Below are positions 292 through 63,048 of a stretch of DNA of 63,854 bases, in pieces. The DNA comes from Streptomonospora alba (GTDB lineage Bacteria > Actinomycetota > Actinomycetes > Streptosporangiales > Streptosporangiaceae): NCBI RefSeq assembly GCF_000826685.1, contig NZ_JROO01000043.1, forward strand, positions 1 to 63,854, given 5' to 3'. How positions within the stretch are numbered: the stretch's first letter is position 1; the number at the start of each line of letters is the position of its first letter. Both the position numbers and the translations under genes were made by a program. The notes under the pieces were generated by a model. It searched no databases. It saw nothing but the letters and a program-made list of their open reading frames with translations, and had not been told where the DNA came from.

Positions 292-9945
<9,654 letters not shown>

Positions 9946-11797: not shown

Positions 11798-11858
11798 CTA
11801 AGTGGTCCTTTTGGCGAAGTCTGCGGTATGCGCCGACCGGGAGGAGGCGGCGCTGCGG

Positions 11859-12789: not shown

Positions 12790-12837
12790 GACTGTGGCAA
12801 CCTCTTCATTCGCTCCCGGCCTGCCCGGCCGCCGGCT

Positions 12838-13263
12838 CTAGTTCCCGATCACTTCCCGCAGCTGGGACCGCAGCTGCGGGGTGAGGGCGTGGCCGACGTT
12901 CTCCACCAGCCGGGTCATCTGGTAGGCGACGATCTTCATGTCCGCCGACGGCGTGGTGAGGACCGCCAGGCAGGAGCCGTCGCTGATCGACATGACGAAC
13001 AGGTGGCCGCGCTGCATGCGCACGATCAGCTGCTCGCACTCGCCTTTGGCGAACAGCTTCGCGCCGCCCACCGCCAGGCTGTGCATTCCGCTGGCGATGG
13101 CCGCGAGCTGCTCGGCGTGCTCCTCGGGAAAATCCTGAGAGGAGGTCAGCACCAGGCCGTCGGAGGAGACGACGACCGCATGGTCGACTCCGGGGACGTC
13201 GGCGACGAAGTTGTTGATCAGCCACGCGAAGTTCTCTGCGGTCACGGCTATCTGGTTGTCCAT
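12838..13263 (-). CDS. cvnB: Conservon roadblock/LC7 protein CvnB
   Basis: A 141-residue Roadblock/LC7 (MglB-like) protein. NFAWLINNFVADVPGVDHAV at the N-terminus and DGLVLTSSQDFP are standard for the CvnB family. These proteins are predicted regulators of the partner GTPase. I chose the ATG at 13263 (MDNQIAVT); the frame is open upstream, but that part is low-complexity Pro/Arg sequence. Confidence 0.9.
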   Translation of the reverse strand: MDNQIAVTAENFAWLINNFVADVPGVDHAVVVSSDGLVLTSSQDFPEEHAEQLAAIASGMHSLAVGGAKLFAKGECEQLIVRMQRGHLFVMSISDGSCLAVLTTPSADMKIVAYQMTRLVENVGHALTPQLRSQLREVIGN

Positions 13264-13344
13264 CGCTATGTTCCAGCTCTCTCGCTCGGCGTGCGGGGGT
13301 CGGGGACCGGAGGCGCGGGGCGCCGGCGGGCGCACCGCGGCGCG

Positions 13345-14778
13345 TCACGGCCCGTCCGCGCGGCCGTCCTCGCGGGCGGCGGCGCGCTCGCCCTCCATGA
13401 ATCCGTCCAGCTCGTCGCGGATCCGCTCGGCTCTCTCGGTGGCGTCTTCGGCGGGCGGGGGACCGGGCGGCTCCTCGGCGGGCATCATCCGCAGCGGCGA
13501 CGTGTGGGCTGTTCGGCGCGGCAACCCTGCGGAGGTGACCGCTGACGTGGCTTCGCTCTGGCGCGGGCCGCTCGGGGCGGCCGAGGCGCCGGTGTCGCCG
13601 GCGGTCTCCTGGGGTGCGGGATCGGCGCGGTGGGCACCGGGCTGGGCCGCGCCCGCGGAGGGCTGCGGAGCGGCGCCCGCCATCGCGGGCACCGCCTGCT
13701 GCGGCACCGCCGGCGCGGGGGTGGGTCCGGTGGCGCTCAGCAGCGCGGCGGGGACGACCGTGTAGGCGTTGACGCCGCGGAAGGCGCGGGCCTCCAGCTG
13801 CACCCGCAGGCCGTGGCGGTGGGCGATGCGGCTGGCGACGTAGAGCCCCATGTGCCGCATCACGCGCTTGTCCAGTACCGGGGTGCCCGCCAGGCGTGTG
13901 TTGATGTCGGCCAGCTGGTCCTCGGGGATGCCGATCCCCTCGTCCTCGACCACCACCAGCAGCGCGCCGTCGGGCATCATCTGACCGCTGATGACGACCT
14001 GGGCGTGGTCGGGTGAGTGGGTGGTGGCGTTGTCGAGCAGCTCGGCCAGCAGGTGGCTCAGGTCGTCGGCGGCCTCTCCGAGGACGAAACGGTCGGGCAG
14101 GCGGCCGAGCTGCACGCGGCCGTAATCCTTGATCTCGGACGTGGCGGCGCGGGCGACGTCGAGCAGCGCCACCGGCTCGATGCCGGAGTCGTCGCTCTCC
14201 TGGTCGGCGAGCACCAGCAGGTTCTCGCCGTTGCGCCGCATACGGGTGGCCAGGTTGTCGATCTCGAACAGCTTCGCCAGCAGGTCGGGGTCTTCGGTGG
14301 AGTCCTCCAGGCTGCCGACGATGTCCAGCAGCGACTCCACCATGGTCAGGTCGCGCATCGCCAGACCGGCGAGCGCCTCGGTGAGCAGGCCGGGGTCGGG
14401 TGGGGGCTCGGGCACGTGGACGGGCTGCGCCCAGGCGTTGTACCGGTGCGTGGCGCCGGGGGCGCCGTGCGCGGAGCCGTTGTAGGCAGGGCCGCTCCAC
14501 TGGCCCGGTCCGACCGGGTGAGGGGCGGCCCGGTGGGTAGCGGGAGCCTCCGGTCGCCAGGGGGCGGGCCCGCCGGCGGCGGGTCCCGGTGCGGGTGCCG
14601 CGGCCTGGGCCGGGGTGCCCGGCTGGAGCCGCACCGGCTGCGACTCCACCTCCCGACGGCCCATTCCCAGTCGGCGAAGCAGCCGCCGGAAGCGCCCTCC
14701 GCGGGCGGGTGAGTCGTCGTATGCGGTCATACGCGTCGGCCGGTCGTCGCGGCCGGGCGGTGAGGGCGGCTGCGCCAC
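13345..14778 (-). CDS. cvnA: Conservon sensor-kinase-like protein CvnA, short form with His-to-Asn change
   Basis: A 477-residue ATPase-domain protein. The N-terminal 130 residues are Pro/Ala-rich and no transmembrane segment or sensor domain is seen, unlike long CvnA proteins. The dimerisation helix reads FEIDNLATRMRRN (about 171-183). In CvnA relatives known to me this is DHLATR with the presumed phospho-acceptor His; here the codon is AAC, Asn175. The HATPase N-box (ELLDNATTHSPD) and G1 box (DEGIGIPE) are intact. The C-terminus is disordered. GTG 14778 is preceded by GAGGAGG. It is likely the first gene of the cvnABCD-monooxygenase operon. Confidence 0.88.
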   Translation of the reverse strand: MAQPPSPPGRDDRPTRMTAYDDSPARGGRFRRLLRRLGMGRREVESQPVRLQPGTPAQAAAPAPGPAAGGPAPWRPEAPATHRAAPHPVGPGQWSGPAYNGSAHGAPGATHRYNAWAQPVHVPEPPPDPGLLTEALAGLAMRDLTMVESLLDIVGSLEDSTEDPDLLAKLFEIDNLATRMRRNGENLLVLADQESDDSGIEPVALLDVARAATSEIKDYGRVQLGRLPDRFVLGEAADDLSHLLAELLDNATTHSPDHAQVVISGQMMPDGALLVVVEDEGIGIPEDQLADINTRLAGTPVLDKRVMRHMGLYVASRIAHRHGLRVQLEARAFRGVNAYTVVPAALLSATGPTPAPAVPQQAVPAMAGAAPQPSAGAAQPGAHRADPAPQETAGDTGASAAPSGPRQSEATSAVTSAGLPRRTAHTSPLRMMPAEEPPGPPPAEDATERAERIRDELDGFMEGERAAAREDGRADGP

Positions 14779-48865: not shown

Positions 48866-49765
48866 ATGGCCGATGGCGCCGAGGGGCCACTGACGCAAGA
48901 GGCGGCACTGGATGTCGCTTCACAGGCAGGCGCGGAACTGGGACTCGTCGCCGCCGAGCGCCGCGTACTCGGGCCGGTCGGGGCGAACGCTTCGGTACTG
49001 CTGCCGAACGAAGCGCTCGTACTGCGCATTACCGCCAAGGCCAACGCCGAGCGCATGCGCCAGGAGCTGGATGTGGCGGCGTGGCTGAACGACTCCGGTG
49101 TCCCCGCCGTACGTCCGGCACGACCTGTGCCCATGGGCGTTGCGGGCCGACTGGTTTCGGTATGGCACGAGGTCCCCGACCCGCGCATGGCCGACAGCGC
49201 CGAACTGGGTCGTGCGCTGCGCCGCCTGCACTCCGTTCACAGCCCGGATGAGGTGCATCTTCCGATTCTGGAGCCGCTGCGCGGAGCCGAGCACTACCTC
49301 GAGGCGGCCACCGGCATCAGCGCCGAGTCACGCGCATACCTGCACTCTCGCCTCGAACAGCTGCGCCAGGCCTTCCGAAGCGTGGAACCGGCGTTGCCCC
49401 TCGGTCCGGTCCACGGCGATGCCCACCGCAAGAACTTCGCGTCCACCCCCGGTGGCGAAGTCGTCGCCATGGACCTCGAGCGGGTGTCCACAGGCCCGCG
49501 TGAATGGGATCTGGTCGTCGCTGCGGTGTACAACGAGCTGGGTTGGTACACCGACAGCGAGTACACCGCCTTTGCCTGTGCCTACGGCTATGACGTGCGC
49601 GACTGGGAGGGCTATGACACCCTCGCCGACATCCGGAGGCTCCGCATGACCGCCTGGCTCAGCTCCCGCACCGGCCGCGAACCGCGGCTCGTTCCCGAGG
49701 CCGAACACCGCATCGCCACCCTGCGTTCGCGCCCCCACCGCTTCGACTGGACGCCCGGCGTGTGA
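48866..49765 (+). CDS. APH-family phosphotransferase 1
   Basis: A 299-residue aminoglycoside-phosphotransferase/choline-kinase-fold protein. The catalytic segment is GPVHGDAHRKNF (about 183-194) with the metal-binding MDLERVSTGPREWDL. ATG 48866 is preceded by AAGGAG. It is paralogous to the product of 51340-52230 and, like it, adjoins an HTH-TPR regulator gene (convergent, one base apart). Its substrate is unknown; resistance is not implied. Confidence 0.82.
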   Translation: MADGAEGPLTQEAALDVASQAGAELGLVAAERRVLGPVGANASVLLPNEALVLRITAKANAERMRQELDVAAWLNDSGVPAVRPARPVPMGVAGRLVSVWHEVPDPRMADSAELGRALRRLHSVHSPDEVHLPILEPLRGAEHYLEAATGISAESRAYLHSRLEQLRQAFRSVEPALPLGPVHGDAHRKNFASTPGGEVVAMDLERVSTGPREWDLVVAAVYNELGWYTDSEYTAFACAYGYDVRDWEGYDTLADIRRLRMTAWLSSRTGREPRLVPEAEHRIATLRSRPHRFDWTPGV

Positions 49766-49766
49766 C

Positions 49767-51212
49767 CTACTGAGCCCCCGCCGGAGAGTCGCGGGTCCGC
49801 TTGCGGAACATGCGCACTGCGGATGCGTCGGCATAGGGCTGCAGACTGTCGTCGAACCGGCGGACATAGCTCTTGACCCGTGCCGACCGCATCGGAGCTG
49901 CATCAGCCACGACTTCGCCGGCGATAGCGCAGGCAGCGTCGACATCGCCGGCTCCACCCATCGCGTAGGAGCCGGCGAGGATCAGGCCCGCGAAGGTGCG
50001 GCTACGTCGATATTCCCTCCGTGCGCCGCTCCGGCTGGCTCGGGCGTGGCGACGCGCCGCTTGCGCATGTCCCAGGTCGTGGAAGCAATGCGCGAACTCG
50101 TCGTTGACCTCGGCCTCGTCGAAATATCCCAACCACTCGGGTTCCTCAGCGGCGTCACTGGAGGCAAACAAGTGCTCCATCCTGCCCAAGGCCTGGGTAC
50201 ATGCCCGCTCCTCCCCCAGCGACGCCAGCGCACGGGCCTCCATGGCCGCGAACATCGCCTCGCCCCCCGGGGTCACCCCGCCATTGGCCCCCACCTGCGC
50301 GCTGCGTGCCAGGTCCAACGCATGGCGGAACTGCCCTCGGAAGTTCGCTTGGTGGCTCAATAGAACCAGCGTCTTTCCCGCGAGAGCCGGATCTCCGGCC
50401 CATCGGGCGAAGTTCAGCGCCTGCACGAAGTAGCGGCGTGCCAGCGTGTAGTGCCCGGCGTCGTAGGCCATGGCCCCCGTCTTGTAGGTGAAGCGCGCCG
50501 CCGCAGAAAAGAGCGCTCCGCCCACTGCGGCGGTGTAGCTCCCCTTCAGGAGCGGTGCTACCTCGCTGTGTAGGTACTGTACGGCGGCGACGCGGGCGTG
50601 TCCGCCTCCGAACTCGTGATCGAGCGCTTCGAACAGATCACACGCACGATTGACGGCCGCGACGTCATCCTCACCGACCCGTGCTGTTCCTTCGTGCCTC
50701 TGGGGCGGCTCCGTATTCGACGTTGTCAGCCACCGTAGAGCCACCGTGCTCACGTCGGGCTCCGGCGGACCTTCTCCTGATCCCTCGGTTTCGAACTCGA
50801 GATCTGCTGCCCACAACGTTCGCGCCGCCTCAGCCGAGGCGTCCGAGGACTCACCGATCTCCGCCGACGACCGGTGACGGTCTCGCTCCTGGCCACCTGT
50901 CGAGGCCGGCGCACCGCTCGATCCTGGACTCACCGTCCGACCACGGGGTACCGGATGAAACCCGAGGTCTCCGTCGCTGTCGGCCCCGAGCACGGCTTTG
51001 AGCCCGGAGCGGTAGGCGGCGCTGGGCCAGCGGACTTTGCCGCGCTCGTAACGGGCGATGGCGTGGGCGTCCAATGCATAGCGCTTGCCGGTGGCATTCC
51101 ACAGGTAGTCGTTGACTGCCTCGGCCAGTTCGCTTCGGCTCATCGCTTCCCCTGGCGCCGAAGGTGAAGGACACCCCTCACGCGCCCTCCGAAGCCGGTG
51201 ATTGAGTTCCAC
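49767..51212 (-). CDS. HTH-TPR transcriptional regulator 1
   Basis: A 481-residue regulator. An XRE-like HTH domain (about 20-80: SRSELAEAVNDYLWNATGKR, then YALDAHAIARYERGKVRWPS) is followed by a linker and C-terminal helical repeats resembling TPR (ARRYFVQALNFARWAGDPAL, FAHCFHDLGHAQAARRHARA). This architecture is common in actinomycetes for regulators of local accessory genes. GTG 51212 follows GGAGC. Its DNA-binding domain is close to that of 52243-53696, so the two arose by duplication. Confidence 0.82.
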   Translation of the reverse strand: MELNHRLRRAREGCPSPSAPGEAMSRSELAEAVNDYLWNATGKRYALDAHAIARYERGKVRWPSAAYRSGLKAVLGADSDGDLGFHPVPRGRTVSPGSSGAPASTGGQERDRHRSSAEIGESSDASAEAARTLWAADLEFETEGSGEGPPEPDVSTVALRWLTTSNTEPPQRHEGTARVGEDDVAAVNRACDLFEALDHEFGGGHARVAAVQYLHSEVAPLLKGSYTAAVGGALFSAAARFTYKTGAMAYDAGHYTLARRYFVQALNFARWAGDPALAGKTLVLLSHQANFRGQFRHALDLARSAQVGANGGVTPGGEAMFAAMEARALASLGEERACTQALGRMEHLFASSDAAEEPEWLGYFDEAEVNDEFAHCFHDLGHAQAARRHARASRSGARREYRRSRTFAGLILAGSYAMGGAGDVDAACAIAGEVVADAAPMRSARVKSYVRRFDDSLQPYADASAVRMFRKRTRDSPAGAQ

Positions 51213-51339
51213 AATCAGCTCCTCGTGCCCGTCGGCTTTCAGGGTAACGAGACGCCCTGACCTCAGGCCCGATCTTCGACCATGCTCGGTGGCTTCCCAC
51301 GCCGAAGGCAGCAGATGGCTGCTGCCACTTCCGTCCGCT

Positions 51340-52230
51340 TCAAAAGGCGTTCCAGGTCCATGGACGGGGGACGTGGCCGCGCAGGCAGCGGATGCGGTGC
51401 CGGGCCTCCTCCGCGGCGCCGGGACGGGATTCGGCCTTGCTGAGGGTGAAGCAGACCCAGCGCAATTCTTGGATCTCCGCGAGGGTCCGGAACCCCGGCG
51501 CGGTGGTCACGTCATAGCCGCCGTAGGCGGTGACGAAGGCGTTGTAGTCCTCGTCGGCGATCCGGGCGAAGTCGGTATAGTCCACGGCCAGGGAGACCAG
51601 ATCGGCGTCCCGCGGGCCGAGGGCGACCTTCTCAAGGTCCATCACGATGGGCGTCCCGTTGTCGGGCACGGCCACGTTGCCTTGCCAAGCATCACCGTGA
51701 ATCACACTGCAGCTTCCCACAGCGCCAAGCCCCTGGTACTGCTCACGAAGATCGGCAAGGCGCCGAGTCAGCCATGCTCGATCTTGGGGATCCAACGCCT
51801 GGGCGGTACTGATGTGGTCGGGATCGATGCCGGCGAACGGATCGAACCGAGGCAGCCGCAGCTCTTCGGGTATCGGCAGGCTGTGAATGGTGCCTAATAC
51901 AGCACCGAGCTCGCCCGGTGTGGCGGGCCGGTGCGGTGGCAGCAAACGCCACCAGGTGACCGGGCGACCACCGATGACAACCGGCTGGGGAACGCCGGCA
52001 AGAGCGTGAACGACCGGCACCGCGCAGCCTTCCAGCCAACGGGAAACGTCCACTTCGCGCTCGGCGACAACGCAGATCCCGGGCCGCCCGACGCGGGCGA
52101 CGACGCGATCGGGCAGCCGGTACAGGACGTTGGCGCCGTCGCGGATCAGTTCAGCGCCGTCGGCGTTGATACCCGCAGCGCGTGCCGCAGCGGTAAGGAC
52201 GGCACTGGCATCGAGGGCGTGGAAGCTCAC
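51340..52230 (-). CDS. APH-family phosphotransferase 2
   Basis: A 296-residue APH-fold protein with catalytic VIHGDAWQGNV (about 191-201) and MDLEKVALGPRDADL. It begins 12 bases after the HTH-TPR regulator 2 stop on the same strand, so the two are co-transcribed. It shares the ending PRPWTW/HRFDWT-like and overall layout with phosphotransferase 1. Confidence 0.82.
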   Translation of the reverse strand: MSFHALDASAVLTAAARAAGINADGAELIRDGANVLYRLPDRVVARVGRPGICVVAEREVDVSRWLEGCAVPVVHALAGVPQPVVIGGRPVTWWRLLPPHRPATPGELGAVLGTIHSLPIPEELRLPRFDPFAGIDPDHISTAQALDPQDRAWLTRRLADLREQYQGLGAVGSCSVIHGDAWQGNVAVPDNGTPIVMDLEKVALGPRDADLVSLAVDYTDFARIADEDYNAFVTAYGGYDVTTAPGFRTLAEIQELRWVCFTLSKAESRPGAAEEARHRIRCLRGHVPRPWTWNAF

Positions 52231-52242
52231 GCGCAGATCGTC

Positions 52243-53696
52243 TCAGGTGTTCTCGGTCGCCACGGCAGCGACGTCGCGGACCAGGTCGGCGACGTCGCCG
52301 TCGCGCGTATGCGGTCGGGCGGCCCGTTGCAGGCCGTGCAGCTCGTTGGTGATCCGTGTGGACCGCAGCGCTTCGGCGTCGGCCACGGCTTGCCGTCCAA
52401 TCGGTACCGCCTCGTGCGGGTCGCCCACCTCCATCAACAGCGAAGCAAGGCGCACGCGGGAGAACACGCGCGAGCGGGGGTAATGGGATTCGTGCAGGGA
52501 GATGGCACTACGAATGCGGTGTGCGGCCAGTTCGGGGCGGCGGGTCTGCAGTGCGAGGGGGATCAGGGCTTTGCCGGTGCTTCCCTGGTGCTCGGCTTCG
52601 TCGTAATAGCACAGCCAGGGGGGATCGTGCTCCGGTGCGCGATCGGCGAAGCAGGCATCCGCCCGGTCGATGTCGGCGCGGATGTCGCGGGCGGCAGCGG
52701 TCAGCGCGAGCACGCGTGCTCGTAGGGTCCATAGCATTGCCCGGGCGGTTGCGGAGAGGCGGTCATCGCGGACCTGGGCCAGCTCGATGAGTGTGAGGGC
52801 GTCATCGAGCTCGCCGAGATAAGCCGCCTTGCGTGCCATCTCAGCAAGGGTGTTGGCGCGCAGTGCCCAGGAACCGGCTTGCTCGGCGCACCACAGCGCG
52901 AAGCGGAAATACCGGTCCGCCGCGGCGAAGTTGGCGATGTCGAAGGCGGAGTAGGCCACTACACTGCTCAGGTTTCCCACCGCCTCATACATCGCCGTGC
53001 GGACGTCATTAGCGGCGCGCGCCTCCAACAGGGCGCCCACCCAGCGCAGCTGGGAGGACGCGGCCTCGCAGCACAGGCCCCGCCGAAGACGTTCTCCGAC
53101 ATGGCGATGGCTCGGGTGGCGCCACGCACATACTCGACATCCGTCCAACCCACCCGGGCGGGAACCGGTGTTTCCACTGCTGTGTCCGCCAGGAATGCAG
53201 CCGGGGACTGTCCGAGGTCGAGATGCCCCCCGATGCCGACCGAGGTTGAATGCAAGGGGGCGGCTCCAGAGGAACCCGGGCGGTCCGGCGTAGGTTCATC
53301 TCCCGATTCTTCAGAGGCCCCGTGCCCGGTGACCAGCGACCGCCTGCCAGCGGCCGGCGATCCGAATCTCCCGCTCTCGTTCGCTCCAGGCTGGGGAGGC
53401 GACGCGGTGCTGCTGCCTCTTCGGGCGGGATGAAAACCCAGATCCGCATCGCGGTCCACAGCAAGGACGGCTTTGAGACCTGCGCGGTAGACGGCGCTGG
53501 GCCAATGCACCTTACCGCGCTCGTAACGAGCGATGGTGTGTGCGTCCAGCGCATAGCGCTTGCCGGTGGTGCGCCACAGGTACTCGTTGGCCGCCTCAGC
53601 CAGCTCCGAACGAGTCATTGCCTCTCCCGGCGCCGAAGGCGACGGGCATGCTTCCCGCGCCGCACGAAGTCGGGAGTTCGGTTGATCAGCGGTCAT
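52243..53696 (-). pseudogene. HTH-TPR transcriptional regulator 2, frameshifted
   Basis: From ATG 53696 (GAGGGA upstream) the first frame gives an HTH domain nearly identical in layout to regulator 1 (SRLRAAREACPSPSAPGEAM; YALDAHTIARYERGKVHWPS). It runs to IAMSENVFGG near 53085. The next frame continues with LCCEAASSQLRWVGALLEAR and TPR-like helices (FAAADRYFRFALWCAEQAGS, YPRSRVFSRVRLASLLMEVG). One extra G in the run at 53078-53081 (C on plus) would restore a product of about 483 residues, matching regulator 1. It may be a sequence error. Confidence 0.75.
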
Positions 53697-53975: not shown

Positions 53976-55400
53976 ATGGAGGACCGCATTCCCCGCGCCG
54001 AGCCGTCCGAGCGTTCAGTGCCGGTGTCCGACCTGCACACCGCAGGCACTCCCATCTACGCCGACGCGCTCGACGAGGACCTGCCCGCGGTCCTCGAGAA
54101 GCTCCGCCAGAGGTACGGGGCCCTCGCTCCCGTGCAGGTCGCCCCGGGCGTGGGCGCGTGGGTGACCCTGTCCTATGACGTCAGCCTCGACGTCTTGCGC
54201 GACCGGGTGCGCTTTCCGCGTGATCCCCGCCGCTGGCGCGAGGCGCGCGAGGGCCGCGCCACCCCCGAGACCGTGCCGGGGCCCTTCTGGTACTTCCGCA
54301 ACGCCTTGGCCTCCGACGAGCCGGACCACTCCCGCTACCGCAGCGTCATCGTCGACGCGCTGACCCGGATCACCCGGGACGGCACCCGGCTGGCCATCGC
54401 CGACATCGCCGCGGACCTGCTCGCCGCACCGGGTGCAGCCGGGCGCATCGACGTGGTCGCCGACTACGCCTTCCGCCTGCCGCTGCTCTTGCTCAACCGC
54501 TACTTCGGCTTGGACGACGCCCACGGGCGGGAACTGACCGAACTCATGCGCCGCGTGTGGGACGGCGGCGCCGACGCAGAGCAGGCGCGCATGGACCTGT
54601 TCGGCTACGCCCAGGCCGTCACCGCCGCGCGGCGAGCCCAGCCCGGCGCCGACGTCGTCTCGCGCATGATCGCCCACCCCCACGGGTTGGATGAGGAGGA
54701 GGTGGCCCACCAGCTCATCCTCGTCATCTCCGCCGCCCACGACCCGCTGATGAACCTCATCGCCCATACCGTCCACGTGCTGCTGACCGATCGCGAGATA
54801 CGTGCGGACGTGGCCGGGGCGCGCACCCGCATCGACGAGGCGATCGACACGGTGCTGTGGCGCTCGCCGCCGATCACGCTGCTGCCGGGCCGCTACGCGG
54901 CCCGCGACATGGAGGTGGCCGGCGCCCGGGTGCGCGAGGGCGACTGCCTGATCATCGGCTACGGCCCCGCCCACGCCGACCCGCAGGTCGCCCCGGGCAT
55001 CGACACCGCCGCGCTGTCGGGCTCGCGCGCGCACCTGGCGTTCGGCGCCGGGGCCCACCAGTGCCCGGCTCACAACCTGGCGCGCCAGATCGGCATCGAC
55101 GCCGTGGCCGCCCTGCTGCACCACATGCCCGACCTGCGCCTGGCCGTGGCTGCTGAGGATCTGGTGCGGCGCCGCTCGCCGTTTGCCCACGGCCTGCACG
55201 CGCTGCCCGCCGCGTGCACGCCCACCCAACGCGATGCCGACTCCTCCCCGTTGTTCTCCTCTGCTGGAGGTGCCCCGTGCCCGCACGCCCCGAGCCCATC
55301 GTCCTGGTCCCCGGACAGGCCCACGCCCAGGCACGCGAGCTCCACGCGGCCGGCCCGCTGGCGCGCGTGGTGGTGGCGGATCTTCAGGTTTGGGCGCTGA
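53976..55400 (+). CDS. CYP157-like cytochrome P450 lacking the ExxR motif (pair 1)
   Basis: A 474-residue P450-like protein. The haem loop is intact, LAFGAGAHQCPAHNLAR (about 355-371). The I-helix reads VISAAHDPLMNLI instead of AGxET. The K-helix reads AIDTVLWRSPP: ExxR is absent and DTVLW resembles the EQSLW of CYP157C1, a P450 family known to lack ExxR. The last 60 residues are an out-of-phase extension overlapping the next gene by 124 bases; they are Ser/Pro-rich and probably not part of the fold. The ATG at 53976 follows GGGGTGG. Substrate and redox partner are unknown. Confidence 0.85.
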   Translation: MEDRIPRAEPSERSVPVSDLHTAGTPIYADALDEDLPAVLEKLRQRYGALAPVQVAPGVGAWVTLSYDVSLDVLRDRVRFPRDPRRWREAREGRATPETVPGPFWYFRNALASDEPDHSRYRSVIVDALTRITRDGTRLAIADIAADLLAAPGAAGRIDVVADYAFRLPLLLLNRYFGLDDAHGRELTELMRRVWDGGADAEQARMDLFGYAQAVTAARRAQPGADVVSRMIAHPHGLDEEEVAHQLILVISAAHDPLMNLIAHTVHVLLTDREIRADVAGARTRIDEAIDTVLWRSPPITLLPGRYAARDMEVAGARVREGDCLIIGYGPAHADPQVAPGIDTAALSGSRAHLAFGAGAHQCPAHNLARQIGIDAVAALLHHMPDLRLAVAAEDLVRRRSPFAHGLHALPAACTPTQRDADSSPLFSSAGGAPCPHAPSPSSWSPDRPTPRHASSTRPARWRAWWWRIFRFGR

Positions 55401-56478
55401 CCCACGACGCGCAGCTGCGTGCCGCCCTGGTGGATGGGCGTTTCCGCCGCAACTGGCGCGCCTGGTCGGCCTTAGCCCAAGGCGCGGTGCCCGCGGATCA
55501 CCCGGTGGCGGCCATGGTGGGGCTGGACAACATGCTCACCGCCGACGGCGCCGACCACCGGCGCCTGCGCGGACTGATCTCCCAAGCCTTCACGCCCGGC
55601 CGGATCGCGGCTTTGCGTCCCGCGATCTGGGGGCGGGCCGAGAAGCTGGTGGAGGAGCTCGCCCTCGCCGCAGGGCCGGTGGATGTGAAGGCCGCCTTCG
55701 CCTACCCGCTGTCCCAGCAGGTCTTCGGGGACCTGTTCGGCATCGGCGACACCGACCACGGCCGCATCCGCGCGATGGTCGACACCGCCTTCTCCACCGC
55801 GCCCCCGGACGAGGTGCGGGCGATGCGGGCCGAGGTCGACGCCTACCTCGACGAGGTGATCGCCGCCAAACAGGACGCGCCCGGTTCCGACGTGGTCTCG
55901 GCGCTCGTCGGGGCCCGTGAGGGCGGCGAGGGGCTGACACCCGCGAGCTGCGCGACACCCTGTGGCTGCTGCTCACCGCCGGCTATGAGACCACCGCCTC
56001 CGCGCTGGCCAACGGCATCGAAACCCTGCTGGGTTCCCCTGATCAACTCGCGCGGTCGTGTGCGGGCGAGGCGGCCTGGCTGGCGGCCGTGGAGGAGATC
56101 CTGCGCGCCGCGACCAGCGTCGCCACGCTGCCGTTCCTCTTCGCGTCCGAGGACGTCACCGTCGCCGGCCACACCATCGCCGCGGGTGAGGCGGTGCTGC
56201 TGTGCTACCTGGCCGCCAACCGCGACCCCGCCCGTTACGGCGAGGCCGAGGCCCTGGATCTGGGAGCGATGCGGCCTCGCCACCTCGGCCTGGGCCACGG
56301 GCCCCACGTGTGCCTGGGGGCCGCGCTGGCGCGCGCTGAGCTGGAGATCGGCCTGTCCACTCTGTTCGCCCGGTTCCCTCGGGCCCGCCGGGTCGAGCCC
56401 GCCCCGCCGCGGCTGGGGTCGGTGTTCATCAACTCCCCCGCCGCGCTGCCGGTGCATCTGGAGCCCGCCGCCGCATGA
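55277..56478 (+). pseudogene. Canonical (CYP154-like) cytochrome P450 with a frameshift (pair 1)
   Basis: GTG 55277 follows GGAGGTG. Frame 1 encodes the N-terminal half (IVLVPGQAHAQARELHAAGP, LDNMLTADGADHRRLRGLIS) to GGEGLTP near 55940. The frame then shifts to LRDTLWLLLTAGYETTASAL, a normal AGxET I-helix, then VEEILRAATS with a normal ExxR, and the haem loop LGHGPHVCLGAALARAE. Adding one C near 55941-55945 gives PAELRDTL and a product of about 400 residues. Closely related to the P450 at 58524-59765. The defect could be an error or real decay. Confidence 0.8.
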
Positions 56479-56502
56479 CCCCCTCGACGCAAGGAGCACG
56501 CA

Positions 56503-56637
56503 ATGGTCTACCCCGCACGAACCGTCCCCGGTTCCGCCTCCTCGACGCGGACCCCAACGGCCGCCGCCGCGGACCAGGAGCCCATGGTGCTGCCGGTCGC
56601 GATCGGTAGCGGCGCAGGGCTGGCGGGTGCCCAGTGA
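56503..56637 (+). CDS. 44-residue peptide gene between the P450 pairs
   Basis: ATG 56503 is preceded by a strong AAGGAG at a six-base spacing. The 44-codon product starts MVYPARTVPG, is rich in Ser, Thr and Ala, and ends MVLPVAIGSGAGLAGAQ. Its stop overlaps the GTG start of the next gene (GTGA), so it is translated as part of the operon. There are no Cys residues and one Tyr (residue 3). It may be a leader or coupling peptide, or a substrate for the flanking P450s; no family is recognised. Confidence 0.5.
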   Translation: MVYPARTVPGSASSTRTPTAAAADQEPMVLPVAIGSGAGLAGAQ

Positions 56638-57209
56638 ACGACATCGACATCGCCGGCGTCGTGGCGCGTCTGCGTCGTGATTACCCGCAGTGGACCGTCA
56701 CCCACCACGCCACCGCGGCCGCCCCGGGTGGGATCTTCCTCGCCCGCCGCCCGGTGCCCACCGACGACGGCACCGAGGCCTTCGCCGCGGCAGCCTCTGA
56801 CGAGCAGGAGATGCGTCGGCGCCTGGACATCCAGGAGAGCCTCATCCAACGCTTGATCAGCCTCAGCCGCGGCGGCTCCCTCGCCCTGGACCACGATGCC
56901 GAGGTCGCCGCGGTGATCGCCGACCTGGAGGACGCTCACCCGCGCTGGCGCCTCAGCTACGAGATCGGCTCCCTAGGCGCAACGTTCACGGCCCGGCGAA
57001 CTCTTCCCCCGCACCATGCCGACCTGGGGCTGTTGGAGACCGTGACCGCCCCGAGCGCGCAGGAGCTGAGCTGGCGTCTGGCCTCCCAAGACGCGCAAAT
57101 CGCCGCCGTGTCCATGGCTGAGGGGCCCGAGGCGGATCCCGCCGGGAGCCTCACCGACACCGTGGCCGGCTTCGAGGACCTGCTCCGCCGCGCCGCCGGC
57201 GAAACCTGA
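56634..57209 (+). CDS. Hypothetical protein with two tandem copies of a ~65-residue domain
   Basis: 191 residues. Copy 1 (about 5-75) reads DIAGVVARLRRDYPQWTVTH, then FLARRPVP and EQEMRRRLDIQESLIQRL. Copy 2 (about 88-160) reads EVAAVIADLEDAHPRWRLSY, then FTARRTLP and AQELSWRLASQDAQIAAV. The copies share the pattern (D/H)P-x-W and a final helix with RL..Q. No catalytic motif is visible. The position inside a P450 operon suggests an accessory or binding role. The GTG start overlaps the 44-codon gene by four bases. Confidence 0.7.
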   Translation: MNDIDIAGVVARLRRDYPQWTVTHHATAAAPGGIFLARRPVPTDDGTEAFAAAASDEQEMRRRLDIQESLIQRLISLSRGGSLALDHDAEVAAVIADLEDAHPRWRLSYEIGSLGATFTARRTLPPHHADLGLLETVTAPSAQELSWRLASQDAQIAAVSMAEGPEADPAGSLTDTVAGFEDLLRRAAGET

Positions 57210-57252
57210 CCCGAGCCCTCGACACCCGTCCGGCCCTCCCCCTGACCAACTG

Positions 57253-58638
57253 GTGCCCCTGATGACGATCGAACCCTTCCCGCTCTACGCCCACACCGGC
57301 CCACCCGCCGAGCTCTGGCCCAGCCTGCGCGCCCGCTACCCCTCCGGTATCGCCCCGGTCATGCTCGACCCCTACACCCGGGCCTGGCTGCTACTCAGCT
57401 GGGAGACCAACAAGCAGGTGTTCCGCGATCCGCTGGAGGTCTACTCGGTCGACCCACGGTGGTGGCGCGAAGGCACCGACGGCACCGTGCCCGAAACCTC
57501 GGGGCTGAAGGCCATCTACCGCCCCCGCGACAACGCCCGCCACCACGACGGAGCCCGCCACCGCCACTACCGCCAGGCGCTGGAGAACGCGTTGGGCGCG
57601 GTCGACCAACGCCGACTGATCGCCGAGGTGGACGAAGCGGCCGACCTACTCGTCGCGCGCTTCGCTGCCCGCGGGTGGGCCGATCTCATCGAGGACTACG
57701 CCGCACAGCTGTCGGCGATGGCCCTGACCCGTTTGCTCGGCCTCGACGACGAGACCGGTGCCCGGGCGTGTACGGCCATGCGCCAACTGTGGGACGGCGG
57801 CGGAGGCGGCGACGCCCTGGCCGGTTGGTACGACCTCTATGCCGTGCTGGCGGAGTCAGCCAAGCACCAGCGGGACGTGCCGGGCGACGGGGTGATCGCC
57901 GGCCTGATCGACGCAGGACACACCGACGAAGAAGTCGCCGACCAGGCATCCCTGGTCGTCTCGGTCACCCACGATCCCGGCGCGCACCTGATCGGCAACA
58001 CCCTGCGGGCGCTGCTGACCGACCGGACGCTGCGGGGCGAGGTATTGGGGGCACGTACCCGCACCGCCGATGCGCTGGATCTGACGCTCGTGCGCGATAC
58101 CCCGATGCGCACCCTCATCGGGCGCTGGCCCCGCGTCGACCACCGCATCGGCGACTACACCGTCCACCAAGGCGACATGGTCGTCTTCGGCCTGGAGTCG
58201 GCCAACCAAGACCTCATCGACAAAAGCGGGATCACCCATCCGCAGGGGGCGCCGGCCTACATCGCCTGCGACACCCACGCCCTGGGCGCCGGCACCCGTG
58301 CACACCTGGCCTGGGGAGTGGGCGCCCACCAGTGCCCGCACAGCAGCCGCGATATCGCCACCACCATCGCCGAACACGCCATCGACCGGCTGCTGGCCCA
58401 GCTGCCGGACATGGCGCTGGCCGTCGACTCCACGGCGCTGGTGCGGCGGATGTCGTTGACCATCAACGGCCTTGAACGCCTCCCGGTCCAGTTCCAACCC
58501 ACCACGATCACCAAGGGACAGACATGGCAGAGCCCCGCCCGCCCCTCGTCCTCGACCCCGGCACCAGCCACGCCGACCTCGCACCGCACCTCCTCGCCCA
58601 TGGCCCGCTTGCTCAAGTGGATCTTCCCGGAGGGATAA
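57253..58638 (+). CDS. CYP157-like cytochrome P450 lacking ExxR (pair 2)
   Basis: A 461-residue paralogue of the P450 at 53976. Haem loop LAWGVGAHQCPHSSRD (the usual Phe is Trp), I-helix VSVTHDPGAHLIGNTL without AGxET, K-helix ALDLTLVRDTPM with neither Glu nor Arg of ExxR. The product runs 115 bases into the next gene, the extension being Ser/Pro/Thr-rich as in pair 1. Starts are GTG 57253 or ATG 57262; neither has a strong ribosome-binding site. Confidence 0.85.
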   Translation: MPLMTIEPFPLYAHTGPPAELWPSLRARYPSGIAPVMLDPYTRAWLLLSWETNKQVFRDPLEVYSVDPRWWREGTDGTVPETSGLKAIYRPRDNARHHDGARHRHYRQALENALGAVDQRRLIAEVDEAADLLVARFAARGWADLIEDYAAQLSAMALTRLLGLDDETGARACTAMRQLWDGGGGGDALAGWYDLYAVLAESAKHQRDVPGDGVIAGLIDAGHTDEEVADQASLVVSVTHDPGAHLIGNTLRALLTDRTLRGEVLGARTRTADALDLTLVRDTPMRTLIGRWPRVDHRIGDYTVHQGDMVVFGLESANQDLIDKSGITHPQGAPAYIACDTHALGAGTRAHLAWGVGAHQCPHSSRDIATTIAEHAIDRLLAQLPDMALAVDSTALVRRMSLTINGLERLPVQFQPTTITKGQTWQSPARPSSSTPAPATPTSHRTSSPMARLLKWIFPEG

Positions 58639-59765
58639 GGGTGTGGGCCATCACCCACTACGACGCGCTGAAAGAGGCACTGCGCAACGAGCCCGAGGCC
58701 TTCGTGCGCAACATGACCAACTGGCGCGCCCTAGCCGAGGGGGAACTCAACCGGGCCAACCCCATGGTCGCGATGCTGGATGGCATGGACTCCATGCTGC
58801 AGTCCAACGACCCCGACCACGCCCGGGTGCGCCGCCTGGTGCAGAAGACCTTCACCCACCGGCGGATCCAACACCTGCGCCCGCAAGTGGAGGCGGTGGT
58901 GGACCAACTGCTGGACGGGGTGGAGGCCGCCGGGCGCGAGCGCACCGTGGACCTCAAGTCCGAGTTCGCGGTACCGCTGCCCATCCGGGTGATCTCGGAC
59001 CTGCTGAGCATCCCGGAAGAGGACTCGGCCACGATCCAGGACCTGACCACCCGCGCCCTGTCAGGGCTGCACCCGGGGGTGATGGAGGAGTTCTGGGCCT
59101 TCATCGACGACACGATCGAGCGCAAACGCGCCCGTCCCGACGAGGGTCTGATCAGTGCGCTGATCGCGGTGCGCGACGAGGATGAGGCCCGGCTCAGCCC
59201 CAAGGAGCTGCGCGACAACATCCTGCTGTTCTACGTCGCCGGCTATGAGACGACCATGGGGGTGCTGACCAGCGGGGTGCAGGCGCTGCTGGAGCACCCC
59301 GACCAGCTCGAACTGATCCGCACCGGGCAGGTCGCGTGGTCCCAGGCCATCGAGGAGATCCTGCGCTGGCAACCCTCGGCGGCCACCCTGCCGATGATGT
59401 TCACCGCCCGCGACGGGGTCCGGATCGGTGACGTCGTGCTGGACAAAGGTGAGCCTCTGCTACTGGCCTACCTGGCCGCCAACCGCGACCCGGCCGTGTG
59501 GGAACACGCGGACACGTTCGACATCACCCGCGAGGCAGGGGCGCACCTGGCCTTCGGTCACGGACCGCACCACTGCCTGGGCGCACCGCTGGCCCGGATG
59601 GAGCTGGGGATCGCCCTCCCCGCCGTCTTCGAACGGTTGCCCGACCTGCACCTGTGGGGCGAGCGCCCCGGCCCGGCTCCCAGCCTGCTCATGCACCACC
59701 CCGCCTCCCTGCGGGTGATCCTGGCCCGCCATGTCGGCCGCGGCGCCTCCATGGTCGCCGCCTGA
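58524..59765 (+). CDS. CYP154-like cytochrome P450 (pair 2), intact
   Basis: A 413-residue canonical bacterial P450. I-helix LLFYVAGYETTMGVLTSGV, K-helix ExxR in AIEEILRWQPS, PxRxD-like region and haem loop LAFGHGPHHCLGAPLARMELG. AAGGGA precedes ATG 58524, inside the preceding P450 gene. It is closely related to the frameshifted P450 of pair 1 and is the only undamaged conventional P450 of the set. Electron-transfer partners are not encoded nearby. Confidence 0.9.
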   Translation: MAEPRPPLVLDPGTSHADLAPHLLAHGPLAQVDLPGGIRVWAITHYDALKEALRNEPEAFVRNMTNWRALAEGELNRANPMVAMLDGMDSMLQSNDPDHARVRRLVQKTFTHRRIQHLRPQVEAVVDQLLDGVEAAGRERTVDLKSEFAVPLPIRVISDLLSIPEEDSATIQDLTTRALSGLHPGVMEEFWAFIDDTIERKRARPDEGLISALIAVRDEDEARLSPKELRDNILLFYVAGYETTMGVLTSGVQALLEHPDQLELIRTGQVAWSQAIEEILRWQPSAATLPMMFTARDGVRIGDVVLDKGEPLLLAYLAANRDPAVWEHADTFDITREAGAHLAFGHGPHHCLGAPLARMELGIALPAVFERLPDLHLWGERPGPAPSLLMHHPASLRVILARHVGRGASMVAA

Positions 59766-60000
59766 CCACGGCCACCGCTGAGACGACCGGGCCATGCGCT
59801 CCGCGCCAGCCGCGCCGATACACCCGCCGATCCGTATCGGCGCCGGCCCCAGGGGAGACAGCGCGTCGAGCCGGGCCTGGTCACCGGTGGAGCGCGTGCT
59901 GAGGCGCGCCCCACCGGGACCACCCTCCCTGAACGAGACGGATCCCTTGATGCACATCAACGCCGGCCCCCGGCCAACTCCCACCCCTTGGAACACGCCA

Positions 60001-60855
60001 ATGACATCCGATGACGAAGGCGTCCCGCCGAGCCCCGCCTTCACTACCGACAAAGCCACCCCGGCCCGCGTCTACGACGCGCTGCTCGGCGGCAAGGACA
60101 ACTACGCCGCCGACCGCGCAGCCGCCGCACGGATCAAAGCGCGCGAACCCAACGCCGAACTGGTCGTCCACGCCAACCGCGCGTTCCTGCGCCGGGCAGT
60201 GACCTACCTGGTCGCCAACGCCGGTATCCGCCAGATCATCGACCTAGGCTCCGGGCTGCCCGAGCAAGACAACGTCCACCAGGTCGCCCAGACCATCGCC
60301 CCGGAAACCCGCGTGGTCTATGTCGACAACGACCCGATCGTGGCCACCCACGGCCACGCCCGCCTGGCCGACAACCCCAACACCGCCGTGATCACCGCCG
60401 ACCTGCGCGACACCACAACCGTCATGGACGCCCCCGAAACCCGACACCTGATCGATCCCACCCAGCCGTGGGCGCTGCTGGCCGTGGCGGTGTTCCACTT
60501 CATCCCCGAGGACCCCGCCGAGATCGTGGCCGCCTACCGAGCCCACATGCCCCCAGGCTCGCACCTGGCGCTGAGCCACCTGTCCCAGGACGCCACCACC
60601 CCCGAGGTCGCCGAGGAAATCACCCGCACCTACGCCGAACAGGCCACCGCCCCCATGGTGCTGCGCAGCCGCGAGGAGATCACCCGGATCTTCGCCCGCA
60701 TGGCGCTGGTGCCGCCCGGACTGGCGCTCATCATGAACTGGCGCCCACCCGTCGCCCCCGTGGCGCCTGACCGGGTGTGGTTGTTCGGCGGCGTCGGCCG
60801 CCTGCCTGCGCCCCCTGACACCCGGAGCGCGACCTCAGGAAAGCACGCCCCATGA
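60001..60855 (+). CDS. SAM-dependent methyltransferase (PF04672 type)
   Basis: A 284-residue S-adenosyl methyltransferase family protein. The N-terminal signature PARVYDALLGGKDNYAADR (about 19-37) is followed by the SAM-binding IIDLGSGLPEQDNVHQVAQ, VVYVDNDPIVATHG and the DLRD segment; the C-terminus has MNWRPP and WLFGGVGR. This actinobacterial family is often near HTH regulators and P450s; its acceptor is unknown. The start could also be ATG 59950. The stop overlaps the next small ORF (ATGA). Confidence 0.88.
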   Translation: MTSDDEGVPPSPAFTTDKATPARVYDALLGGKDNYAADRAAAARIKAREPNAELVVHANRAFLRRAVTYLVANAGIRQIIDLGSGLPEQDNVHQVAQTIAPETRVVYVDNDPIVATHGHARLADNPNTAVITADLRDTTTVMDAPETRHLIDPTQPWALLAVAVFHFIPEDPAEIVAAYRAHMPPGSHLALSHLSQDATTPEVAEEITRTYAEQATAPMVLRSREEITRIFARMALVPPGLALIMNWRPPVAPVAPDRVWLFGGVGRLPAPPDTRSATSGKHAP

Positions 60856-60971
60856 CGAGCCTTCCTCAGACGGGCCGCCGTGGCGTCACCCGCCCCGATC
60901 TGCGCGCCACCCTGGCACTCTTCGTCGGCAGCTCCTCTGGTCGCCGCCACGCGCGAGAAAGGTGCTCATGA
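60852..60971 (+). CDS. 39-residue ORF, ATGA-coupled on both sides
   Basis: Starts in the stop codon of the methyltransferase gene and ends in the start codon of the next ORF, both through ATGA overlaps. The product is basic (MTSLPQTGRRGVTRPDLRAT, then LALFVGSSSGRRHARERCS) with no known family. The tight coupling argues that it is translated, whether or not the peptide itself has a function. Confidence 0.45.
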   Translation: MTSLPQTGRRGVTRPDLRATLALFVGSSSGRRHARERCS

Positions 60972-61147
60972 GCCTTCCCACCACCGTGGTCGTCGTTGTG
61001 GCGGGCGAGGTGGTCCTCATCGGCGCATTCGCCGGCCGGGCCCGCCGTGACGGCGCAGACAAGGCTGCCTATCACGTGCTGTTTCCCGCCACCGCCGTCG
61101 TGCTGGGCGTCATCCTCGCGCTGGCGCACCTGGCCGGCTGGTGGTGA
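60968..61147 (+). CDS. 59-residue membrane peptide
   Basis: Two hydrophobic segments (VVVVVAGEVVLIGAFAG at about 7-23 and VLFPATAVVLGVILALAHLA at about 37-56) joined by a basic loop (RARRDGADKA). GAAAGG precedes the ATG. It is the third member of an overlapping gene series and lies upstream of a membrane-protease-like gene. Function unknown. Confidence 0.55.
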   Translation: MSLPTTVVVVVAGEVVLIGAFAGRARRDGADKAAYHVLFPATAVVLGVILALAHLAGWW

Positions 61148-61249
61148 GCACCATCCCACCGATCCGCGCCCCGCCCGCGGGAGAACCAGCACCCCACTCC
61201 CCAGCGACTCCGAGCCCTTCTTCCACCATTGCCGAGACAGAGACCGATC

Positions 61250-62131
61250 GTGACGACACCCCCCTCAACCACCGCCACCGCCCCCACAGCAACCTCCGAC
61301 CCGCCGGTGCGCGGGTGGCGGCGCCTGCTGCCCCAACCCACACCCGCCTCGGCCCTGCCCGCGCCCAAGCCGATGCCGGCCTGGCTCGCCTACACCGCCT
61401 TGGTCCTCGCCTACACCGTGACGTTCGGCTACTCGCTGACCGGCATCGTGGCGGCCTACCTCTCCGGCGGCACCGCACCGGTCACCCACCCGCCCACAGC
61501 CCAGAACTTCTGGTCACAGGCCCTGCCCGGCTGGATCCAGCACGCCGTCCTCCTCCTGGTGGTCACCGCGGTGGTGCTGCTGGTGGCCTGGCGGCGCCGC
61601 ATCCGCGTGCACGATCTGTTCGCCCCCGCACCGCCCTCGGCCCCCACCGCCGAGAGCAAGCAGCGAGCGCGCCGCCAGGCCCGGACCGTGTTCCTTTGGG
61701 CACTGGCCGGGATGGCGGCCTGGATGGTGGCCTCCTCCGTCATCGGCCAACTGGTGCCCGCAGGCCTGGCCGGCGGGTTCGCCATCGAGAACCGCAGCGA
61801 TGCCATGTGGATCGTCGGGCTGCTGGGACCGACCCAGTTCACCACCGCCCTGATCGAGGAACCCGTCGTCGTGGCGGTGCTGGTGATCCTGCTCAGTGCG
61901 GCCTACCGACCGGCCGCCGAAATCTACACGGTCGGGGCGATCGCCAAGGTGGCCTACCACGCCTACTACGGGCCCGTGGTGCTGCTGCTGATCCCCGAGG
62001 CGCTGCTGGTGCTGTGGCTGTATCGGCGCACCGGGCGGCTATGGGCCGTCATCTGCGCCCACGCCGCCTACAACGGCGCCTACTCCCTCCTGGTGATCGC
62101 CTGGCCGCCCGTCGCCGCCTACATGGGCTGA
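61250..62131 (+). CDS. CPBP-family intramembrane protease-like protein
   Basis: A 293-residue polytopic membrane protein with about eight hydrophobic segments. The CPBP (CAAX protease/bacteriocin-processing) signature is visible: TALIEEPVVVAVLVI with the Glu-Glu pair (about 200), VAYHAYYGPVVLLLIP with a His and HAAYNGAYSLL with the second His. Such proteins are glutamic peptidases or membrane partners that process prenylated or peptide substrates. GTG 61250 is preferred to the upstream TTG 61229. Confidence 0.78.
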   Translation: MTTPPSTTATAPTATSDPPVRGWRRLLPQPTPASALPAPKPMPAWLAYTALVLAYTVTFGYSLTGIVAAYLSGGTAPVTHPPTAQNFWSQALPGWIQHAVLLLVVTAVVLLVAWRRRIRVHDLFAPAPPSAPTAESKQRARRQARTVFLWALAGMAAWMVASSVIGQLVPAGLAGGFAIENRSDAMWIVGLLGPTQFTTALIEEPVVVAVLVILLSAAYRPAAEIYTVGAIAKVAYHAYYGPVVLLLIPEALLVLWLYRRTGRLWAVICAHAAYNGAYSLLVIAWPPVAAYMG

Positions 62132-62235
62132 GCACCCACGCCGCGGTCCCCGCACGAATCCCCCTCGCGCGGGGACCCTCCGCACCCCAGCCGTCATCGA
62201 CTTCGCTGCCGAACTTCCCAGCACAGGAAGCATCC

Positions 62236-63048
62236 ATGACACCGCCCTCGAAACAGATCCGCATCGCGTCGCAGAACCTGAAACACGGCGGCATCCAGAC
62301 CGGCGACGGCCGCCCCGACGACCGGTGGCCCACCATCGCCGCCGATCTCCGCACGGTGCAGCCCGACATCGTGTGCCTGCAGGAGTGCCACGGCTGGAGC
62401 GACCACCTCCGCGCCCAGGTCTACCGCGCCGAACAGGACCTCGGCATGCGCCTGGCCGGGCTCGTGCGCGGCCGCGCGGTCGGGGGCAACGCCGTCTTCT
62501 ACCGACCCGAGGCCATGGCGCAGTGCGGGTGGGCCGACGCCTACGCCCAGGAGACCTACACCGGCCTGGGAGTCGCGCTCTTCGACGTCGCCGGCTGGTC
62601 CCAGCGGCTGGCCGTGGCCAGCACCCACCTGACCACCACCAGCGCCGAAGCGGCGATCGACGAGGCGATGCGGGTGGCCGACCGCATCACGCGCTACAGC
62701 GCATACGGGGTGATGATCGGCGACATCAACACCCACCCCGTGCGCGACGGCGGTAGAGCCCCCGACGCGGCGACCGCAAAGCCGCTGGACCGGGCGGCGC
62801 GCTGGGACAGCGACGACCAGCCCGATCGGCGCGTGGCCCACCGCCTGCACCGCGCCGGGCTGGTGGACGCAGCCGACCACCTCGCCCAAAAATCCGGCGA
62901 CACCCGTCTATACGCACCGACGGGCCACGGCGGCATCCGGGTTGATCAGGCACTGGTGACAGCACCGCTGACCGCGAAGCTCACCACCTACGAACGGGTG
63001 GAGACGGCCAGCGACCACACCGGGATCGTGATCGGAATCGACCTGTAA
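62236..63048 (+). CDS. Endonuclease/exonuclease/phosphatase-family protein
   Basis: A 270-residue EEP-fold metal-dependent phosphodiesterase. The N-terminal IRIASQNLKHGG, the metal Glu in DIVCLQECHGW, the VASTHL segment, IGDINTHP and the terminal ETASDHTGIVI are the expected catalytic elements. It is cytosolic with no signal peptide. ATG 62236 is preceded by AGGAAG. The substrate (nucleic acid, inositol phosphate or other phosphodiester) cannot be told. Confidence 0.85.
   Translation: MTPPSKQIRIASQNLKHGGIQTGDGRPDDRWPTIAADLRTVQPDIVCLQECHGWSDHLRAQVYRAEQDLGMRLAGLVRGRAVGGNAVFYRPEAMAQCGWADAYAQETYTGLGVALFDVAGWSQRLAVASTHLTTTSAEAAIDEAMRVADRITRYSAYGVMIGDINTHPVRDGGRAPDAATAKPLDRAARWDSDDQPDRRVAHRLHRAGLVDAADHLAQKSGDTRLYAPTGHGGIRVDQALVTAPLTAKLTTYERVETASDHTGIVIGIDL

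Follow-up and report, generated by a model that had tools for sequence, protein, structure and literature searches.

Two pairs of cytochrome P450 (P450) genes in the stretch of Streptomonospora alba DNA analysed here (63,854 nt of contig NZ_JROO01000043.1; hereafter the window) share an arrangement in which the end of the first gene is read, out of frame, from the codons that begin the second. The first members (A1 and A2) lack the ExxR motif of the K-helix, the second ones (B1 and B2) carry it, and nulls based on synonymous recoding indicate that the overlapping frame is under selection for a proline-poor amphipathic helix at the C terminus of A. Two P450 pairs with a conserved overprinted tail suggest that the proteins work together, the odd one being anchored or docked. 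A preliminary description of this region, made from the sequence of the window alone, is confirmed here in part; it had missed the overlap of A over B.

A1 (53976-55400; all four genes of the pairs are on the plus strand) encodes 474 amino acids (aa) including the tail, with a P450 fold, DTVLW in place of ExxR at the K-helix, HDP in the I-helix and the haem Cys preserved. A2 (57262-58638), the second ExxR-less P450, is of a different lineage from A1, has DLTLV and HDP at these positions and also keeps the Cys. Both overlaps are out of frame. That of A1/B1 (55277-55400, 124 nt) places a Pro/Ser linker and a RARWRAWWWRIFRFGR-type tail of A1 over the first codons of B1, and that of A2/B2 (58524-58638, 115 nt) places an SSSTP-rich linker and MARLLKWIFPEG over the first codons of B2. 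A sequence resembling a ribosome-binding site precedes the start of B, inside A, in both pairs. The second members had been described as conventional, which holds for B2 (58524-59765), a CYP154-family P450 with AGYETT, EILR and HHCLG whose identity to CYP154E1 of Thermobifida fusca (PDB 8rtv), 49% over 378 aa, lies above the 40% threshold of CYP154. B1 (55277-56478) is CYP154-like and has the expected motifs (EILR, AGYETT and HVCLG), but a one-base break at about 55935-55945 interrupts the frame, and its halves (39.9% and 47.7% identical to CYP154E1) fall outside a definition of CYP154 that takes 40% identity together with an intact gene.

The same arrangement was found in many relatives. Our A-type set comprised 100 distinct proteins of one actinomycete family (hereafter the family) and 27 from outside it, the loci being denoted by L and a number. 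We picked 80 extra family regions among the matches listed, and frequencies in the set are not unbiased. L084, a repeat of locus L046, and L071 12158-13420, which is no A-type protein, were dropped before arriving at the 100, and two truncated A rows, L183 and L184, before arriving at the 27. Overlaps of 109-142 nt were present in 40 of 49 A-B pairs (39 of 48 when the repeat L084 is left out), while six pairs overlap by 1 nt, three do not overlap, and no overlap between 2 and 108 nt was seen among the 49. A thus has its last 35-46 codons superimposed, in a different frame, on the beginning of the B gene. Start codons of B were set by rule (distance, a Shine-Dalgarno-like match, ATG first), and the value of -338 for the pair of L154 is probably due to a mis-set start. 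In T. fusca (L146) A overlaps the first 142 nt of its B, a protein identical to PDB 8rtv (CYP154E1) over 394 of 394 aligned residues, from residue 6 on. Since the N terminus encoded within this overlap is part of 8rtv, the B start is supported. The gene of CYP154E1, a crystallised and studied biocatalyst, is found at L146 2745-3950 (minus strand) and is therefore itself the partner in such a pair. To our knowledge, conserved overlaps of more than 100 nt between bacterial genes, with measurable selection on both frames, are uncommon.

Selection on the overprinted tail

The A residues encoded by the overlap begin as a linker rich in Pro, Ser and Thr and finish in a short stretch rich in Trp and Arg. 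As a null, the 5' end of each B gene was recoded synonymously and the resulting A tail scored (2000 draws; 40 pairs in 17 clusters at 70% B identity). The last 16 residues of A contain 0.90 prolines, against 2.62 in the null (standard deviation 0.27), their hydrophobic moment is 0.589 against 0.418 (standard deviation 0.032), and their helix propensity is likewise above the null (0 of 2000 draws in all three cases). Net charge is also raised, +3.5 against +2.6 (9 of 2000). Three further nulls, built on pooled codons, pooled 5' codons and within-gene codons, agree. In the case of B1 the own-gene codon null and the row of third-base conservation include out-of-frame codons past the frameshift; the pooled nulls, whose codons come from other clusters, agree. 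Fewer prolines than in the null were found in 17 of 17 clusters, in A2/B2 and L124 only just. Followed along B, the signal has its maximum where the overlap ends; over the linker its direction is reversed, and of the later positions the eleven that yielded a value show little or none of it. Eight of nine control B genes without overlap showed no proline depletion. The A frame is open in all 40 pairs; the average chance of an open frame under synonymous recoding is about 0.79, and the product of these probabilities over the 17 clusters about 0.004. Plain third-base conservation, tried as a test of the overlap, had a mixed outcome, being higher in the overlap than in the rest of the gene in two clades (0.615 vs 0.518 and 0.696 vs 0.634). 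Taken together, selection would appear to act on the properties of the helix and not on exact letters.

The tail is not confined to overlapping genes. Lone A proteins have the same design of linker and tail without an overlap, many of them ending like LLxRLLRWWRG, and a Trp within the last 18 residues is found in 58 of 60 lone tails and in 29 of 39 overlap-encoded ones. The hydrophobic moment of the lone tails exceeds that of their own shuffles (1/1000). The number of residues after the haem Cys is bimodal, 52-71 in 27 proteins and at least 85 in 99 (one could not be measured), and judged by this length the tail is kept in 46 of the 52 family A genes for which no B was found alongside. A group of lone A proteins (L087, L101, L104, L115, L130, L135, L136, L139 and L147-L151) has long tails with GARYQAP-like, often repeated motifs before the end. 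C-terminal membrane-targeting helices of the FtsA/MinD type are short, cationic and amphipathic and follow a flexible linker. The A proteins resemble them in carrying a short cationic amphipathic helix after a linker, the likeness being one of sequence amphipathicity alone.

Motif loss and relatives of the A-type proteins

The complete ExxR motif is present in none of the 127 A-type proteins and in 47 of 47 B proteins (B rows L070 4620, L072, L084 and L160 1277 were dropped from the motif counts, as were those shorter than 331 residues, both B1 halves among them). The column of the ExxR Arg holds Trp in 118 of the 127 and Arg in one. At the I-helix Thr, which all 47 B proteins have, Thr or Ser occurs in 16 A-type proteins and is lost in 111, with Pro there in 101. 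Loss of ExxR in every A protein compared makes it a trait of the clade and no peculiarity of the window. The motif losses reported for A1 and A2 are thus borne out, with DTVLW, DLTLV and HDP at the aligned positions. An ExxR displaced to another place was also looked for: none is found at the K-helix position of A1 or A2 in the alignment, A1 has E..R strings that begin at residues 41, 189 and 202, all distant from the K-helix, and A2 has none. The haem Cys in the FxxGxHxC loop, also noted before, is present in 127 of 127, and the alignment with relatives places that of A1 and A2 within GAHQCP; the C-helix His and Arg, the loop His and the Cys are all kept in 103. The ratio of nonsynonymous to synonymous substitution rates (dN/dS) was 0.12-0.36 in 12 close comparisons, indicating purifying selection on A. 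The pseudo-enzyme proposed in the preliminary description gains support from this selection, together with the clade-wide loss of ExxR and the frequent loss of the I-helix Thr.

With the Pfam p450 model at an E value of 0.001, B2 was detected, while A1, A2 and the first half of B1 were missed; a six-frame search did detect the second half (E 3.6e-10). The AlphaFold2 model of A1, predicted with 11 other rows, has a P450 fold (mean predicted local distance difference test score, pLDDT, 71; predicted template modelling score 0.72), and among solved structures it is matched best by CYP154C2, Vdh and CYP154C1 (template modelling scores of about 0.66-0.82). Residues 421-474 form a low-confidence stretch, with a helix at 462-471 within it. 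The identification of A2 as a P450 comes from its sequence match to P450 chains only.

The two pairs had been taken for duplicates of each other, which proved wrong: a local duplication is rejected by both the tree and the identities. A1 shares 38% identity with A2, against 58-70% with its orthologues in Thermobifida, Nocardiopsis, Murinocardiopsis and other family members, among the matches listed. In our tree (FastTree only; 127 A and 8 B rows) A1 belongs to a 13-row clade (support 100) with proteins of the three named genera. A2, on a long branch, is in an 8-row clade (support 99) with two further A genes from this genome (L070, L071) and that of T. fusca (L146). Given these different clades, and a gene order in L071 that matches the A2-B2 region (see below), the window joins two different lineages of pairs. 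The identity matrices of A and B co-vary (r = 0.88, 46 pairs, 0/1000 permutations). Part of this co-divergence comes from the shared ancestry of the genomes. Conserved overlap and matching divergence, both read from sequence, support a link of A with B.

How these proteins relate to CYP157 is less straightforward. PMC3599690 describes members of CYP157 as P450s without ExxR, with EVLW or EQSLW instead, EQSLW being that of CYP157C. The pairs had been called CYP157-like and CYP154-like. The second half of this name stands for B2, and the ExxR-less class does fall in the same clade as conservon-linked proteins of another family that carry EQSLW. As regards the first half, A1 and A2 are candidate CYP157 members: their highest identities to the 27 out-of-family A proteins are 38% and 34%, respectively, compared with the 40% taken for CYP157. 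Six of these (L175, L177, L178, L181, L187 and L189) have EQSLW and end in WWRGY after a linker, a design shared with our A proteins. Like the CYP157 of Streptomyces, A1 and A2 have no ExxR Arg and keep the Cys, and the K-helix Trp is found in A1 (DTVLW) and not in A2 (DLTLV). Unlike it, they are only 28-32% identical to the six EQSLW proteins (the comparison was made with these and not with named CYP157 sequences), they encode the tail over the partner gene, and they do not adjoin a conservon, to which CYP157 is described as linked. Similarly, the conservon-linked P450s called CvnE fall in the same A-type clade, but A1 and A2 are free-standing genes with a tail and not the fifth gene after cvnABCD. 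CYP154E1 shares with the window pairs both its overlap and its similarity to B2, and differs from B1 in that the latter is broken. P450-derived glycosyltransferase activators (TIGR04515, which we take to be the EryCII/DesVIII type) are P450-fold proteins that serve a partner enzyme. A1 and A2 give weak matches to this NCBIfam model (97 and 50.7 bits), well below the cut-off of 343, and keep the haem Cys.

Possible roles of the A proteins

The interpretation that we favour, tentatively, makes A a pseudo-enzyme that binds haem or a ligand and is tethered through its tail, with B as an active monooxygenase translated together with it. Each A-B pair would be a two-gene unit with B as an ordinary CYP154-family monooxygenase. 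A would retain the haem-thiolate pocket, and since the I-helix Thr (oxygen activation) and the ExxR of the K-helix are lost it would most likely bind haem and a ligand without oxidising the latter. The flexible linker and the Trp/Arg amphipathic helix would most likely hold A at the membrane or at a signalling complex. As the tail of A is written over B and the putative ribosome site of B falls within A, B is probably coupled to A in translation. The same arrangement makes the genes inseparable without cutting the A tail, and the overlap speaks for a joint action of A and B. A might then be a receptor or sensor, reading a ligand that B makes or consumes. A much broader generalization, which we regard as doubtful, is that ExxR-less P450s are widespread non-catalytic haem receptors on a conserved amphipathic tail, overprinted in one actinomycete family on a co-translated CYP154 gene, so that an enzyme and the receptor of its substrate or product would be made inseparably and together feed into signalling at the membrane or through conservon G proteins. 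In any case, a conserved tail and an out-of-frame overlap provide a concrete handle on the role of ExxR-less P450s of the CYP157/CvnE type, as the A tail can be removed, or destroyed through synonymous changes in B.

Several observations weigh against the tethered pseudo-enzyme and the selection on its tail. Only 13 of the 17 clusters exceed the null in hydrophobic moment, one of the nine control genes does show proline depletion, and third-base conservation is lower in the overlap than in the rest both in a third clade (0.456 vs 0.550) and when pooled (0.513 vs 0.549). The confidence of the tail helix in the A1 model is low (block pLDDT 37 and 32). For 52 of the 100 family A genes no B was found alongside. 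Outside the family a B adjoins seven of the 27 A proteins and none of the 27 has an overlap above 60 nt, and the tail therefore needs no overlap. Mutual exclusion of tail and conservon was considered and rejected. In the family the data leaned that way, 5 of 19 conservon-linked A proteins having a tail by length and 14 lacking it (including all six cvn-A-B units with a 1-nt overlap), and outside it the rule failed, 13 of 22 being tailed. According to PMC4077532, CYP154E1 was made in Escherichia coli, purified and active with putidaredoxin and its reductase from Pseudomonas putida, so B-type enzymes need no A in vitro. Finally, it is from sequence that we infer haem binding, membrane binding and contact between A and B.

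It is possible that A is instead a signalling accessory of the CvnE kind, which would dock with its core or its tail on a sensor-less CvnA histidine kinase of an actinobacterial G-protein system and report the state of haem or ligand. Free pairs would then act in trans, on conservons at other sites of the genome. The pairs had been described as lying apart from a conservon. In fact no conservon gene is beside A1 or A2, but the same contig has a complete one (11859-14730, minus strand; CvnA 13345-14730, CvnB 12838-13263, CvnC 12430-12708, CvnD 11859-12455). This, the nearest, is adjoined by no P450, and its CvnA shows only HATPase_c in Pfam; that it is a partner in trans is speculative. Moreover, the relatives L044 and L069 carry conservon-type genes directly after B1. 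In L044 (Murinocardiopsis) the A1-B1 pair is followed by Roadblock and CvnC-like genes and by those of a styrene-monooxygenase-like flavoprotein, a methyltransferase, a ketosynthase-acyltransferase (KS-AT) polyketide synthase and a Methyltransf_19 protein. The CvnC-like protein has no Pfam match and is similar to a DUF742 protein of L069, a locus with the same order in which a Roadblock gene was not found.

CvnE and CvnF, according to PMC13343842, accompany CvnA proteins without a sensory domain and are proposed as inputs or modulators. This 2026 paper notes that neither kind of accessory had a biochemical assessment before its own, which tests a CvnF; for a CvnE it offers a predicted complex model only, and it uses none of the terms CYP157, amphipathic and C-terminal tail. 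An accessory of this kind would agree with the placement of A in one clade with conservon-linked P450s and with the conservon genes upstream of A, which number two or more in 19 of the 100 family members and in 22 of the 27 A proteins from outside (with only about 1.5 kb of upstream sequence in the latter). It agrees less well with the 81 family A genes that do not have two or more such genes upstream, and outside the family the presence of a tail does not track conservon linkage, docking being hypothetical here. All six 1-nt pairs are conservon-linked cvn-A-B units, as are three of the 40 large overlaps (L100, L116, L141).

An unlikely alternative is that A is a real, if unusual, P450 catalyst, a peroxygenase or a substrate-assisted enzyme that needs neither ExxR nor the I-helix Thr. 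The universal Cys, the haem-site His/Arg/His/Cys set kept in 103 of 127 and purifying selection on A would all fit such an enzyme, and so would the description of CYP157 members as P450s without ExxR (PMC3599690). The complete loss of ExxR and the replacement of the I-helix Thr/Ser, mostly by Pro, argue against it. Rather less likely is the hand-over subunit suggested in the preliminary description, in which A would bind a substrate or intermediate and pass it to B within a stable A-B heterodimer, the tail making contact with B or with a carrier protein. Adjacency, overlap, co-divergence over 46 pairs and the P450 fold of A1 are all compatible with this; however, the B protein CYP154E1 is active from E. 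coli with foreign redox partners (PMC4077532), and of the 52 family A genes for which no adjacent B was found 46 keep the tail.

We also consider it quite improbable that the region is decaying, in which case B1 would be a pseudogene and the pairs would be left over from a cluster that was mobile or rearranged. GC content at third codon positions switches frame near 55.94 kb, within B1, which in alignment is one base short with respect to L044 and L069. As assembled B1 is not translatable as one protein, leaving A2-B2 as the sole complete pair in this strain. An NsdA-like regulator gene 3 kb from this frameshift (52243-53696, minus strand) is also split between two frames; an intact counterpart at 49767-51212 served as reference. 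Among five genomes of the same genus, the best A1 match is about 35-41% identical (among the matches listed) and A2 was unmatched at E 1e-70, again as expected of a relic. On the other hand, A1, A2 and B2 are intact with a clear codon signal, and as the genome is a draft of 110 contigs the breaks may be errors: B1 may have a real lesion or a draft error, and the two broken genes may reflect local decay or misassembly. Lastly, that the overlap is a by-product of GC-rich DNA, A having lost its stop codon and running to the next one in B, is hardly tenable, for even though the frame is open in most synonymous recodings and many A stops coincide, in our reading, with a Leu/Val-Thr pair of B, proline depletion in every cluster, amphipathicity beyond four nulls, a signal located at the overlap end, the similar tail of lone A genes and the low joint chance of open frames all speak against it.

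Neighbouring genes

The pairs had been said to flank a tiny open reading frame (ORF). There is one (56503-56637, plus strand, 44 aa), but its coding score is weak, it has no relative in any locus compared and it is probably no conserved part; as a precursor peptide or a conserved component it was rejected. It is followed by sm2 (56634-57209, plus strand, 191 aa), a protein without a Pfam match, a 38% homologue of which precedes another A gene of the same genome (L071). Downstream of B2 are the genes, all on the plus strand, of a Methyltransf_19 S-adenosylmethionine methyltransferase (60001-60855), also found beside A-B pairs in L044, L069 and L071, of a CPBP/Rce1-like membrane protease (61250-62131), whose homologue closes the A1-B1 cluster of L044 too, and of an endonuclease/exonuclease/phosphatase-family (EEP) protein (62236-63048), which has a 70% homologue after the A-B pair of L071. 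The order is sm2-A-B-Methyltransf_19-EEP in L071 and sm2-A2-B2-Methyltransf_19-(CPBP)-EEP in the window, so that this module occurs twice in the genome (L071 5126-10076, window 56634-63048).

No title or abstract opening in the listed literature on CYP157, CYP154, conservon P450s and CvnE announces the tail or the overlap, and the words "operon" and "CYP157" do not occur in a CYP154E1 paper searched for these terms. The window CvnA, with HATPase_c as its only Pfam match, has no adjacent P450, though published work ties sensor-less CvnA proteins to CvnE and CvnF. The conservon belongs to a minus-strand stretch (292-14730) that continues with a styrene-monooxygenase-like flavoprotein and a 3245-aa ORF similar to polyketide synthases. 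NsdA-family regulators beside kinase-like proteins (assigned by eye) are found near P450 pairs both in the window (48866-53148) and in L044 (3076-6174).

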